A DNA stretch of 64,000 nt, taken from IMG/VR virus record IMGVR_UViG_3300009152_000039, positions 1 to 64,000 of that record; one strand, given 5' to 3'. A program made the position numbers and the translations under genes. The notes under the pieces are model-generated. The model did not search any database. It worked only from the letters and a program-made list of their open reading frames with translations, and was not told where the DNA came from. Source of the DNA: a virus. Shown here piece after piece: positions 15,857-20,116 of the stretch. Every line of letters begins with the position of its first letter. Position 1 is the first letter of the stretch.

Positions 15857-15879
15857 AAAGGGGCCTAGGCCCCTTTTTT
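15857..15879. terminator. Bidirectional terminator between convergent genes
   Basis: GGGGCC (15860-15865), TA, GGCCCC (15868-15873) with T6 on the plus side and an A-rich run (minus-strand T-rich) on the other. Lies between gp32 (+) and the tape-measure gene (-). Confidence 0.9.
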
Positions 15880-18431
15880 CATGCAAACCCTGATAGAGTT
15901 CTGTGTGCAGTTCTGTCTAACGAATATACTGGATTAACACTTCTAGATCCACCAGAAGCCACTGAATTGCTGTTATAGTTGTTTGTAATGATGTTGTTCA
16001 CACTTGCTTGTTCACCAGATTTTGGTTTTTCTGTTGCATTACGAACAGTGTTTATTGTATTAAGAGTATTAATTAAATCATTTGTTAGGTCTTCTGGATT
16101 CACACTCTTTCTCACACCTGAGAAAAAATCAGATAGTTTGGTTCCAGCGTTCTCAACAGCGTCCTTTGCCATACCAACAACACTCTCTCCACGTATGGTC
16201 ATCGGAGTTGTGTTGCTTAGCGGCTTTGTGACATCCTTCATTAGTCTGTCTATATTTTTCTCATACATCTTAATTTCAGCTTCTCTTTGAGCCTTTGTTC
16301 TGGTGCCTGAGTCCTGTGTACTGCCACTAGCCTGCATGATCTCCGGACTATCAAGCATTGCATCTAGTTTTTTTGCAAATACTTGTGCGTTGGCATTTTT
16401 ACCTTGGAATATCTCCCAGGTATTCATCATGTAGGTTTTAAACTGGTCTTTGGTTATTTGTCCACTCAAAAAGGCTTCTAGATTTTTATTAGCCATGCGT
16501 TTGAACAACTCATCCTGGAATTCCGAATTAAATATCTTATCCATCTCGGATTCTTTGACTATACCTTTAACATCTTCGTACTTACCTGTTTCTTTGTTTT
16601 TTACTCTGCCACCAAACAAAGTAGATTTAATAAACTGGTAACCACCTATAGGGGAATGAGGGTCTCCACCTGTTTTTGTTCTGCTGAGCATTTCGGTTTG
16701 AACCTGCATCACCTCTCTCATCGTGAGCTCAGAGACTTGTTTTCCACCAGGCAACTGCATACCTTTCAACCTATCATCCTCAAATATAGCATTATATCCA
16801 GCTTTGCCAGCCTCACCTTCTCTTGTCAAGTTAGCTAATGCTGTTATTGCACCATCTCTATTTCTCTGTAAATCCTCTGCACTGACCTCCTCAACACCAT
16901 TATTTCCAAGTATGGCATCCAGGTAATCGTCTTGCTTCATTTTCTTGGGCTTTCCATCCCTGCCCATATAATACACGTAGTTAAGAGTTCGAATTATTGG
17001 CTGCATTATTTCAACAGCTATGCGTCGTGCGTTTGGCTTCATTCTACCCCACTCAGCATAGAAATCCCTCAATGCAAATGGAGCAATATCTTTACCCTCT
17101 TCCAATCTTATTTGCTCTTGCACTGCCCTGGCATTATCTTCGTATTCTTTAAGGATTTTTTGCTCCCGTGCTACCTGTGCATCCAGCTTAAGTGGGCCAG
17201 CACGTGTAATACCATATTCGTCGGTGACTGGGTTATCCTTGCGCTTAAAATCAGCTATCACATCTTGTGAAAGAGGTTTGAGGGGTATTGTACCGGATAT
17301 CTTACCCGAGAGCTGATTTACCTCTTGGAATCCTTCGGGATAGACCATGTTAACTGCTTCTTCTGCGTCCTTATCCGAAACACCCCAACCCTTCAAAATT
17401 TGGTATGCATCGTAAGCAAGAACTCCAGCGGCCAAAAGAGTAAGCACAGGACCACTTGCTAGCGCACCAACCAATCTCCCTCCCATCCTGCCCATTGTAC
17501 TTAAAATAGATGTGGTTGCTTGCTTGGTAGCATTGAGCGTTGATGGTGGAAGTGGTCTTCCAAATTGATCCAGAATTCGTGGAGTAGATGTTCCTCCTGG
17601 AGCTGCTGGAGTTGCTCTTCCACCAGGAGCAATAACAGGTGGTACCATCCCACCACCCGACCCTGGTATTTGACCACCCATTCGCCTCACAAGCAAACTA
17701 TCAATGCTGTTGAGCAGCATGTGGTTTCTGAACATCTGTAATACAACTTTACCAGCTACAGTGGACAAGATTCCAAGCATTGCTGCATCACCAAGTAGAT
17801 TTAAAGTATCTTTGACATACTTCTTGGGGTCCTTACCAAATGTCTCCATCATTGAATCAAACTTCAGTGATATTATCTTGAACCCAGACTGAAGAATTTC
17901 AAAAAACTTGGTAAATCTATCAAACAACTCATCAAATAAAGGAAACTTTATATCAAGAGATTTGAACCCTGAAGTAATATTGCCAATCATGGCTTTCACA
18001 GGGGCCAACAGCTTTTCCATCAATTTACCAAAAGCACCTGATAGCCGATCCTGGGTAATAGAACTCATATTATCCCATAGCAACACCTTTGCAAGTAATG
18101 CTGCTATTCCAATTGGGAGAGCTTTGCCAAGTCCGGAAAGAATTGATCCAGAAAGAGAAGAAACTCCACTGGCAACCCCACTTGCAGCGCTACCAACACC
18201 CGATGCTAATTTTGATGATAGATTTGCAATTGCATTACCCAACTTAGATGTCATATCTTTCATGTTAGATACAAAAAGTTCATTGTATCTTAGAAGACGT
18301 TTGTTATACTCGGATTGTAGACTATGATAGCGCTGTTCAGCATTCATCTGCTTGATTTGTTGTATCCTTATGGATCTCAACTCTTTCAAACTTTCTATGT
18401 AACTTCTGTCGGTTTTATCAGCGGCTGCCAT
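15879..18431 (-). CDS. gp29: Tail tape-measure/hub protein with muramidase-like domain (850 aa)
   Basis: Minus-strand gene starting at 18431, overlapping the gp51-like frame by 14 nt. N-terminal heptad-like helices (about 1-70), a hydrophobic Gly/Ala/Ser-rich stretch (about 70-120), more hydrophobic segments near 215-240 and 330-350, and long helices fit a tape-measure protein. Residues about 525-690 contain LTREGEAGKAGYNAI and SPIGGYQFIKSTLFG, the Glu and 'S-x-x-G-x-YQF-x-x-T-L' pattern of phage lysozyme/transglycosylase domains. Position after the gp26/gp51 chaperone-like pair supports tape measure (T4 gp29, 590 aa, lacks this domain). Confidence 0.75.
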   Translation of the reverse strand: MAAADKTDRSYIESLKELRSIRIQQIKQMNAEQRYHSLQSEYNKRLLRYNELFVSNMKDMTSKLGNAIANLSSKLASGVGSAASGVASGVSSLSGSILSGLGKALPIGIAALLAKVLLWDNMSSITQDRLSGAFGKLMEKLLAPVKAMIGNITSGFKSLDIKFPLFDELFDRFTKFFEILQSGFKIISLKFDSMMETFGKDPKKYVKDTLNLLGDAAMLGILSTVAGKVVLQMFRNHMLLNSIDSLLVRRMGGQIPGSGGGMVPPVIAPGGRATPAAPGGTSTPRILDQFGRPLPPSTLNATKQATTSILSTMGRMGGRLVGALASGPVLTLLAAGVLAYDAYQILKGWGVSDKDAEEAVNMVYPEGFQEVNQLSGKISGTIPLKPLSQDVIADFKRKDNPVTDEYGITRAGPLKLDAQVAREQKILKEYEDNARAVQEQIRLEEGKDIAPFALRDFYAEWGRMKPNARRIAVEIMQPIIRTLNYVYYMGRDGKPKKMKQDDYLDAILGNNGVEEVSAEDLQRNRDGAITALANLTREGEAGKAGYNAIFEDDRLKGMQLPGGKQVSELTMREVMQVQTEMLSRTKTGGDPHSPIGGYQFIKSTLFGGRVKNKETGKYEDVKGIVKESEMDKIFNSEFQDELFKRMANKNLEAFLSGQITKDQFKTYMMNTWEIFQGKNANAQVFAKKLDAMLDSPEIMQASGSTQDSGTRTKAQREAEIKMYEKNIDRLMKDVTKPLSNTTPMTIRGESVVGMAKDAVENAGTKLSDFFSGVRKSVNPEDLTNDLINTLNTINTVRNATEKPKSGEQASVNNIITNNYNSNSVASGGSRSVNPVYSLDRTAHRTLSGFA

Positions 18432-18603
18432 TCTTTGCTATTTCCTCTTGGTTTTTTATATGCTGTTTAATATACTCAAGGAATATATCCCTTTCAAAGG
18501 GTATCATAGATTCAATTTCTGTTATAGAATAATGGTGGTGCTGAGCCAAAATAAAAATTATATTATAATAATTTTCTAGGTTGCTGTGGCTCAGCCCAAC
18601 ATA
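18418..18603 (-). CDS. gp51: gp51-like frame, reached by -1 frameshift from gp26 (61 codons)
   Basis: From minus-strand 18603 to TGA at 18420-18418 an open frame encodes NLENYYNIIFILAQHHHYSI, TEIESMIPFERDIFLEYIKQ and a basic end, matching the short gp51-type sequence of T4-like cyanophages. It has no ATG, GTG or TTG at its beginning; the first ATG is deep inside (ESMIPFE). It is exactly -1 relative to gp26, which ends just after a T7 slippery run. Best read as a gp26-gp51 fusion made by ribosomal frameshifting. Non-AUG initiation at CTG or GTT is the alternative. Confidence 0.75.
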   Translation of the reverse strand, partial: YVGLSHSNLENYYNIIFILAQHHHYSITEIESMIPFERDIFLEYIKQHIKNQEEIAKNGSR

Positions 18604-19301
18604 AAAAAATCTTCTATAGACTTCAGCTCAATCTCTCTTGTGGTTCCTTTTTCATTAGTGTACTCTATCTTGTGATAGAGCTTTGGCATTGTGTCAAAGA
18701 ACTTTTCAAAAGACTGCAACACACTACTAGGTAGATCTTCAATAAATGCATCAACTTCTTCTTGTTTTGACTGCTTAAAGTATACAACATTGTCTCCATC
18801 AAAATAAGTGTCAATGCATCCTCTAATCATATAGAATAGTATGTCAGCGACACCATCTTGTGAAACTACGTCTGAAAGCATTCTTGCGTTTGGATATCTC
18901 ATAGAGATTCCCGATGTTCCAGATAATTTAATAATATTTGAGTGCTCTTTATTCTCTGTAACATTTACGTCATCAATATTAATTTTGAAGGTGTATTGCT
19001 TTTCATCTTCTGGGTCAGTGTATCCAATTTGAATCTCCTCACCAACCGACTTTGCTCTAAGTTTCAAGAATAGTATTTCAAGATCAAATGAAGCTAATTC
19101 ATCTGCTTTTACTACACTATCCACGTCACAGTTTGTAATAATTTGTTGAATGACGTTAATGATATCATTTTCTTCCCCACTCTGCTTTGCCATGAGCAGC
19201 AGTTTCTCTTCTTTAACAAGAAACGGTCTAAATCTTGCTTTTTGTTTTGTAGATGGTATAATCAACTCAAAGGTTGGGTGCATCAATTTTGGTAAAGCCA
19301 T
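18591..19301 (-). CDS. gp26: gp26-like baseplate hub/tail assembly protein (236 aa)
   Basis: Minus strand, ATG 19301 with AGGAG upstream. MALPKLMHPTFELIIPSTKQ, then KARFRPFLVKEEKLLLMAKQ and FDLEILFLKLRAKSVGEEI are the hallmark gp26 (PF12322, T4 base plate protein) segments. Length 236 against 208 in T4. The last sense codons overlap a slippery T7 tract leading to the gp51 frame. Being immediately upstream of the tape-measure gene, it occupies the position of lambda gpG-type tail chaperones. Confidence 0.88.
   Translation of the reverse strand: MALPKLMHPTFELIIPSTKQKARFRPFLVKEEKLLLMAKQSGEENDIINVIQQIITNCDVDSVVKADELASFDLEILFLKLRAKSVGEEIQIGYTDPEDEKQYTFKINIDDVNVTENKEHSNIIKLSGTSGISMRYPNARMLSDVVSQDGVADILFYMIRGCIDTYFDGDNVVYFKQSKQEEVDAFIEDLPSSVLQSFEKFFDTMPKLYHKIEYTNEKGTTREIELKSIEDFFMLG
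18603..18609 (-). promoter_or_regulatory. Probable -1 ribosomal frameshift site (T TTT TTT)
   Basis: On the minus strand gp26 reads GAT TTT TTT ATG TTG GGC TGA, placing T_TTT_TTT in the X_XXY_YYZ register. Slipping back one base gives GAT TTT TTT TAT GTT and continues 61 codons. A small stem (GTTG/CAAC with CTG/CAG) can form just downstream, closer than usual. Confidence 0.72.
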
Positions 19302-19333: not shown

Positions 19334-20116
19334 TTAACCACGTAATCCTGCACGTAAACTTGATATCAATCCAGCTGGTTCACTTGCTTCTTGAGTATCA
19401 TACTTAGTCATGCTCCAGTTATGAAACGCAAAATTTACAGTAAACGTTGAAAATGAATCACCACCTGAAGCTGATAGACTCATATCACTAATGCTTGTAG
19501 GAAACGCTTTGTATAATGTTACGTCTCTAATTTTTTCTAGTGGATGCTGTTTGGCACCTTGGCTGTTTAACAGCGACCCTACAAAAGGAACACCAGCTGC
19601 TGAAGTGACTGTTGTGGCTGCTAATTGCTGCAACCCAAATCCTGTGAATTTACCAGGAGCTCCTCTATATGTGCTTATCACAATATCACAAACATAACTG
19701 TTCTGATAAGACATGACGTACGATAGGTTTTTGAGCTCACTCTCTGGCTGAGGATTTCCTGGTGCAGCTAGTTTGTTATGTGATGGAATTATAGAATCCA
19801 TCCATTCATAGAATAGATTATAAATTCTTCCTCCACCATCTGCAATATATGTAACAGACACGTCGCTGAATGCAACTCCAACTGGCATTTTTTGAGAAGG
19901 ACCTAAGCCATATCTTCTGACTGACTCAGTTATGACGCCAATTCCAGGAAGTGTGGTATTTTGTACAAAAAGACTGAGGGGATTTCCAAGCTCAGACCAT
20001 TCTGATTTCAGCAGCGTAGATGCGTTAGAAGGCATGTTGATAAGGACCGTAAATAGGTTCGGTCTTTCAACGTCGTACTTCTGGATTTGTGACTTAAATT
20101 CTTTAATGTCTAACAT
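19334..20116 (-). CDS. gp54: gp54-like tail-tube initiator / tube-fold baseplate protein (260 aa)
   Basis: Minus strand, starting at the base where the next gene ends. The N-terminus (KYDVERPNLFTVLINMPSNA) and the later FVQNTTLPGIGV, VTYIADGGGRIYNLFYEWMD and FTVNFAFHNWS segments are those of T4-type tube-fold proteins. Position in the gp4/gp48 neighbourhood suggests gp54 rather than the tail tube gp19, which would lie near gp18. Shorter than T4 gp54 (320 aa). Confidence 0.7.
   Translation of the reverse strand: MLDIKEFKSQIQKYDVERPNLFTVLINMPSNASTLLKSEWSELGNPLSLFVQNTTLPGIGVITESVRRYGLGPSQKMPVGVAFSDVSVTYIADGGGRIYNLFYEWMDSIIPSHNKLAAPGNPQPESELKNLSYVMSYQNSYVCDIVISTYRGAPGKFTGFGLQQLAATTVTSAAGVPFVGSLLNSQGAKQHPLEKIRDVTLYKAFPTSISDMSLSASGGDSFSTFTVNFAFHNWSMTKYDTQEASEPAGLISSLRAGLRG

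Follow-up and report, generated by a model that had tools for sequence, protein, structure and literature searches.

A short gene of the T4 gp26 family and the open frame overlapping its 3' end, both on the minus strand of the viral record IMGVR_UViG_3300009152_000039 (IMG/VR), are the subject of this analysis; "the window" denotes the whole stretch analysed, which comprises 64,000 nucleotides (positions 1 to 64,000 of that record). Judging from the sequence, we consider it very probable (roughly 0.88) that a programmed -1 ribosomal frameshift at the end of this gene yields a short and a long tail assembly chaperone (TAC-N and TAC-NC), in the manner of the lambda proteins G and GT. This had been the core of the original prediction and is now supported by a conserved slippery heptamer, a coding signal in the -1 frame, RNA signals around the site, a match to the family PF12322 and a resemblance to the HK97 TAC. 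According to the proposed mechanism, most ribosomes would terminate at the stop codon of gp26, giving TAC-N, while a minority would slip back one base on T_TTT_TTT, giving a TAC-NC of 295 amino acids, probably aided by an RNA stem starting 5 nucleotides downstream. On the model of lambda G and GT, the N domain shared by both forms would serve to coat the tape-measure protein, and the tail tube protein would be recruited by the extension. We infer that the ribosome rather than RNA polymerase slips, and likewise the ratio of the two products and their binding roles. As for lambda gpG/gpGT, a short protein and a minor -1 extended form would be encoded between the genes for the tail tube and the presumed tape-measure protein. 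Unlike the lambda genes, to which they are unrelated in sequence at the level tested, those of the T4 superfamily bear a Shine-Dalgarno (SD)-like element or a long stem. Lambda's own slip sequence also differs from T_TTT_TTN. Both the frameshifting and its link to T4 gp26/gp51 are already published (see below); its breadth, the stimulator signals and the lineage of the window are possibly new here.

The gp26-type open reading frame (ORF) ends, on the minus strand from position 18615 down, with GAA GAT TTT TTT ATG TTG GGC TGA, so that the seven T are read as T_TTT_TTT in the gp26 register, as had been predicted. The distance of 15 nucleotides given there was loose: 12 nucleotides follow the heptamer, that is, three sense codons and the stop codon. 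A -1 slip adds 61 residues (YVGLSHSNLENYY...NGSR; codons at 18603-18421, stop at 18420-18418), which bears out the predicted length. The extension was also said to have no start codon. This is correct for the intact extension, since no ATG, GTG or TTG occurs among the first 20 codons of the -1 frame; the first possible starts are a TTG at index 20 and an ATG at index 34, counted from the first F, and a TTG-started piece of 43 amino acids is present within the frame (18549-18418). No other of the window's 78 stop-to-stop ORFs of at least 100 amino acids combines an in-frame T_TTT_TTN in its last 10 codons with at least 40 open codons behind it in the -1 frame. In dinucleotide shuffles of the 3' region, 60 codons stayed open in 9 of 2000 cases.

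Conservation of the site was analysed in 121 loci, namely the window, 24 close viral contigs, 16 named phages picked for diversity among 60 of 552 records, and 80 contigs found by scanning with a profile, which gave the best 80 of 597 stretches that matched. They derive from a set of 123 sequences, from which T4, unmatched by the profile used, and the window's own copy (L122) were left out. Near-copies are included (L042 and L005 are one contig, and L024 carries the window's protein); removing them at 95% protein identity left 107 loci. All 121 loci contain an in-frame T_TTT_TT[C/T/A] positioned 0-3 codons before the gp26 stop and followed by a -1 extension of at least 40 codons. The cyanophages P-SSM2 and Syn9 have the site. 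Among the 107 loci, the heptamer reads TTTTTTC in 57, TTTTTTT in 47 and TTTTTTA in three. The codon preceding its TTT ends in T in every one of them, though it encodes seven different amino acids, while the genes' own codon usage predicts a T-ending codon in 66%, TTT in 70% and both together in 46% per locus. At other FF pairs of the same genes, the slip-site form was found in only 4/115 cases. The -1 frame is closed at most one codon upstream of the heptamer in 24/107 loci; there, the shift must therefore fall at the heptamer or within the handful of codons between it and the stop. Because the loci share ancestry, we do not claim a probability for the conservation of the heptamer.

The extension evolves as a protein in the -1 frame and is under purifying selection. 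For the part past the gp26 stop, the ratio of nonsynonymous to synonymous substitution rates (dN/dS) had a median of 0.077 among 12 loci of the window's clade, and it was below 0.5 in 21/21 computable pairs (66 pairs were examined, 45 of which had saturated dS). Variable columns numbered 24, 11 and 43 (of 49 each) at the first, second and third codon positions, third positions thus being the most variable. The first 20 extension codons lack ATG in 45/107 loci and any of ATG, GTG and TTG in 30/107, with the window belonging to both sets. Positions within this early stretch are nevertheless conserved (L in 100/107, Y in 97/107 and F in 101/107 loci), and the extension of the window matches the family phrog_634 (Table 1). 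It had been proposed to check whether the T7 tract and the missing gp51 start are kept in cyanophage-type genomes: the T_TTT_TTN form is general among the loci compared, seven T and the lack of an early start being restricted to the subsets just given.

In the named cyanophage and other records L026, L027 and L030-L041, the gp51-type gene annotated by the depositors has varying starts or is missing; the extension is unannotated in P-RSM1, AS-szw, S13 and S-MbCM6. These entries look like mis-annotation, and for one-gene phages the databases show a separate "gp51" whose start varies between entries, or else leave the gene out.

We then considered RNA signals at the site. The predicted stem region downstream of the heptamer in the window folds with a z-score of -3.9 relative to shuffles and of -3.25 relative to synonymous resampling. 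For the 75 nucleotides downstream of the heptamer, the mean z-score relative to synonymous resamples was -2.48, with 67/107 loci below -2, as compared to -0.48 and 23/212 for control windows inside gp26. The stem was also examined in an alignment of 34 of the 107 sequences, which were selected for resemblance to the window's architecture, so that the pair counts lean towards the stem: 91.4% of cells were paired, five of them with double changes, as opposed to 21-40% when the partner was slid as a control. RNAalifold retained eight stem pairs in this alignment, two of them with double changes. An SD-like element, which exceeds the synonymous controls in cyanophage-type relatives, lies upstream, with a peak 6-10 nucleotides before the heptamer; its mean best free energy (dG) was -5.55, compared to -3.97 in resampled sequences. 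The distance ranges were chosen in view of the expected spacing and are uncorrected for this choice. The 56 loci that have an E-G-L type motif show a strong element (mean -7.7), and the remaining 51, among them the window's clade, a weaker one (mean -3.2). Loci with a long-loop stem (51) had a mean SD dG of -2.7, and loci with a compact hairpin (36) one of -7.5. The long-loop stem on the one hand and the compact hairpin with an SD-like element on the other may be two alternative stimulator designs. A strong SD-like stimulator was rejected for the window itself, where the best dG was -1.2 kcal/mol 5-11 nucleotides upstream and -4.8 in a slightly wider range, and no intrinsic terminator was found at the slip site. 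In search listings of the open-access PMC literature, a scope outside which Vladimirov 2022 and Xu 2004 fall, we found no description of a downstream stem or SD-like element at the TAC site.

The gp26-type protein of the window matches PF12322 with 191 bits (cut-off 24.5). Both T4 gp26 (208 amino acids) and gp51 (249 amino acids) match the same family, which distinguishes two groups of phages: a single copy was found in 17/17 one-gene phages (the 16 named ones and Melnitz-2) and two copies in 7/7 two-gene phages (T4, RB49, Konradin, KP15, VP8, L9-6 and PSTRCR_127). Apart from T4, the two-gene phages were picked from search rows; Melnitz, from one of those lists, proved to be a one-gene phage. 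In the 72,574-base record of the window, which is a fragment, PF12322 matched only once, and we thus found no T4-type pair there, that is, no two PF12322 genes one of which carries an in-frame extension. Since the first gp26 profile missed an E-value of 1e-5 on the T4 locus, T4 was treated with a wider profile and Pfam. None of the seven two-gene phages has T_TTT_TTN near the end of the short gene, and T4 gene 26 reads GAG TTC TTT GAG. A profile of the extension matched the C-terminus of gp51 in 7/7 two-gene phages (E-values from 4e-10 to 0.011; best of 280 shuffled decoys, 0.074), while their short gp26 proteins remained unmatched (best E 5.2). The gp51 alignment runs without gaps through the slip position. 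In an unrooted tree of 43 N domains, one branch (100/98) separates the 29 one-gene from the 14 two-gene rows.

T4 gp51 therefore repeats the gp26 domain in full and carries the extension behind it, so that its equivalent is the frameshift product and not the fragment encoded by the -1 frame. The equation of the -1 ORF with gp51 has to be corrected in this respect, and the proposal that gp26 and gp51 are the myoviral equivalents of G and GT is supported but not new, the T4-like TAC assignment having been published in 2022. An ATG-started gp51 in relatives without a slippery run had been named as evidence that would speak against frameshifting. Exactly this arrangement occurs in T4-type phages, whereas one-gene phages keep the site; the two-gene solution does not refute frameshifting in the latter. 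Taken together, the comparison of sequences points to frameshifted tail chaperones as the rule in one-gene phages of the T4 superfamily, including those of cyanobacteria, Caulobacter, Rhizobium, Vibrio, Aeromonas and others. A duplication in a frameshifting ancestor is a plausible origin of the T4 pair, though the unrooted tree does not give this direction. We see about even odds for the broader scenario, in which one-gene phages of the T4 superfamily would have an ancient recoding module in common whose helpers can replace one another: an SD-like element, often with a compact hairpin, in the cyanophage type, and a long-range stem without SD in the window's clade. The T4 lineage would have dispensed with frameshifting by duplicating the gene and keeping the frameshift product as an in-frame gp51, joined exactly at the former slip site.

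A structural model of the gp26-type protein (58 sequences) had a mean predicted local distance difference test (pLDDT) score of 87.6. Its top match among solved structures was 2ob9, the tail assembly chaperone of HK97 (Z 7.2 over 84 residues at 3.9 Å; next match, Z 4.0), to which gp26 residues 1-86 correspond. The two differ in that only 8% of the matched residues are identical and gp26 has about 150 more residues. The HK97 chaperone alone stood out in this search, and the matches listed leave room for other chaperone families. The structural match, based on a model, may be taken as favourable, not decisive. The gp26 profile found nothing better than E 0.35 among PDB sequences, and an NCBIfam search gave no match.

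Several observations weigh against a frameshift with this function. The Z-score of the 2ob9 match is below 8, and Foldseek alone ranks 2ob9 nineteenth (E 2.6). By a lenient criterion, 87/107 loci have a stem, but the mean of synonymous resamples is already 67.6/107, and the window's clade is without a strong SD-like stimulator. Related two-gene phages function without a slip site. The putative tape-measure ORF was unmatched in Pfam, PHROGs and NCBIfam, with nothing better than E 0.38 among PDB sequences. Finally, an ATG is found at extension index 2-6 in 41/107 loci, in many of them directly after the gp26 stop, as in P-SSM2, so that re-initiation is possible in some loci.

This last point could also suggest that the extension is a separate small gene ("gp51") with its own start or with re-initiation at the gp26 stop, which is how depositors annotate it. 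Such a gene would leave the invariant heptamer unexplained, T4-type gp51 has the extension fused to the N domain, and the early stretch, though its residues are conserved, has no ATG in 45 loci and none of ATG, GTG and TTG in 30; we rejected an ordinary separate gp51 gene as a general explanation on account of these 30, and regard the idea as very unlikely. The same fusion protein would result if RNA polymerase slipped on the T tract and some mRNAs gained one base. Slippage on homopolymers is known elsewhere, as mentioned in a passage of PMC5009743, and the tract has seven T in the window and in 47/107 loci. Since 57/107 loci hold just six T ending in C, and since the strict T_TTT_TTN register, the SD-like element and the downstream stem mark ribosomal frameshifting and would be unexpected for a polymerase, we consider this improbable. 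Homopolymers are error-prone in some sequencing methods, so one continuous gene might appear split by a sequencing error or by a recent mutation of the T tract. The identical break at the same place in 121/121 loci, including 16 deposited phage genomes, rules this out for practical purposes, and the purifying selection in the -1 frame beyond the break speaks against it as well. Ribosomal frameshifting thus remains the preferred explanation.

The coordinates of the site and its neighbours are given in Table 1. The window had been described as T4-like, and this was borne out by neighbouring genes matching the families of single-strand DNA binding protein, baseplate tail tube cap, baseplate wedge, head closure, DNA end protector and tail tube. 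The site was further said to lie upstream of the tape-measure gene. An 850-amino-acid ORF is in place there; its identity as the tape-measure protein is suggested by position and size, and not by a family match. Its only match in a named phage was to Xanthomonas phage X1 (residues 532-718, 34% identity), and comparison with the tape measure of Cr30 by BLASTP yielded E 0.079.

Table 1. Features at the putative frameshift site and next to it (positions in the window)
Feature	Position	Strand	Basis
Putative short tail assembly chaperone (TAC-N), T4 gp26 family, 236 aa	18591..19301	-	ORF; PF12322 E 2.9e-56; phrog_150 E 2.2e-62
Candidate slippery heptamer T_TTT_TTT	18603..18609	-	sequence; in-frame T_TTT_TTN in 121/121 loci
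-1 extension, 61 codons and stop; C-terminal part of proposed TAC-NC	18418..18603	-	open frame; phrog_634 E 4.5e-20
Predicted downstream RNA stem, arms 18597-18587 and 18548-18537	18537..18597	-	starts 5 nt after heptamer
Tail tube protein, upstream neighbour	19334..20116	-	phrog_45 tail tube E 2e-35
850-aa ORF, presumed tape-measure protein	15879..18431	-	position and size alone; starts inside (overlaps) the extension

In the passage concerned, a 2016 review describes G-T frameshifting as widely conserved "except T4" (PMC5009743). For T4-like phages, the TAC genes were identified by Vladimirov, Gautam and Davidson 2022 (Virology 566:9-15), according to passages in PMC10885494 and PMC12846349. 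The former, reporting this work, mentions that some T4-like phages have a short gene and a fusion gene in place of frameshifting, and the latter refers to it with regard to TAC-N genes of T4-like phages that bear poly-T signals. The citing passages of PMC12671138, PMC12859696 and PMC11131426 give no details on slip sites. In the sections available, gp26 and gp51 are listed as hub assembly chaperones in PMC3004832, and proposed chaperone or cofactor roles are mentioned in PMC9024508. The T4-like TAC genes gp26 (TAC-N) and gp51 (TAC-NC) share PF12322 with the system described here, and the C-terminus of gp51 is homologous to the -1 extension; T4-type phages differ in having two genes and no slip site instead of one gene with a -1 site. 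As far as described in a part of PMC12846349, the TAC of Vandenendeviridae and Andersonviridae is likewise a myovirus TAC-N gene with a poly-T signal and a -1 extension mis-annotated as a separate gene, but these are other phage families and their signal is an invariant GTTTTT, not T_TTT_TTN. A putatively frameshifting lineage and one with a duplicated gene offer a clean natural comparison, which bears on how the ratio of short to long chaperone is set.

Some minor observations concern the two-gene phages and gp28. In Klebsiella phage KP15 (L125:2501-4188), a long gp51-type gene, a short gp26-type gene and gp25 stand in tandem on one strand (51-26-25), unlike T4 genes 26 and 51, which are divergent; the KP15 order is a possible intermediate. 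There is a weak match of T4 gp26 to the family of gp28 (phrog_1140, E 9e-4; T4 gp28 is located at L001:6349-6879), and the depositors of Konradin label gp26, gp51 and gp28 (at L124:4838-5386) as tape measure protein assembly chaperones. The protein gp28 might be a further relative. CxxC pairs, resembling a zinc ribbon, occur near the end of the N domain in several gp26/gp51 proteins (L034-L037 and the T4 type), and the protein of the window is without them.

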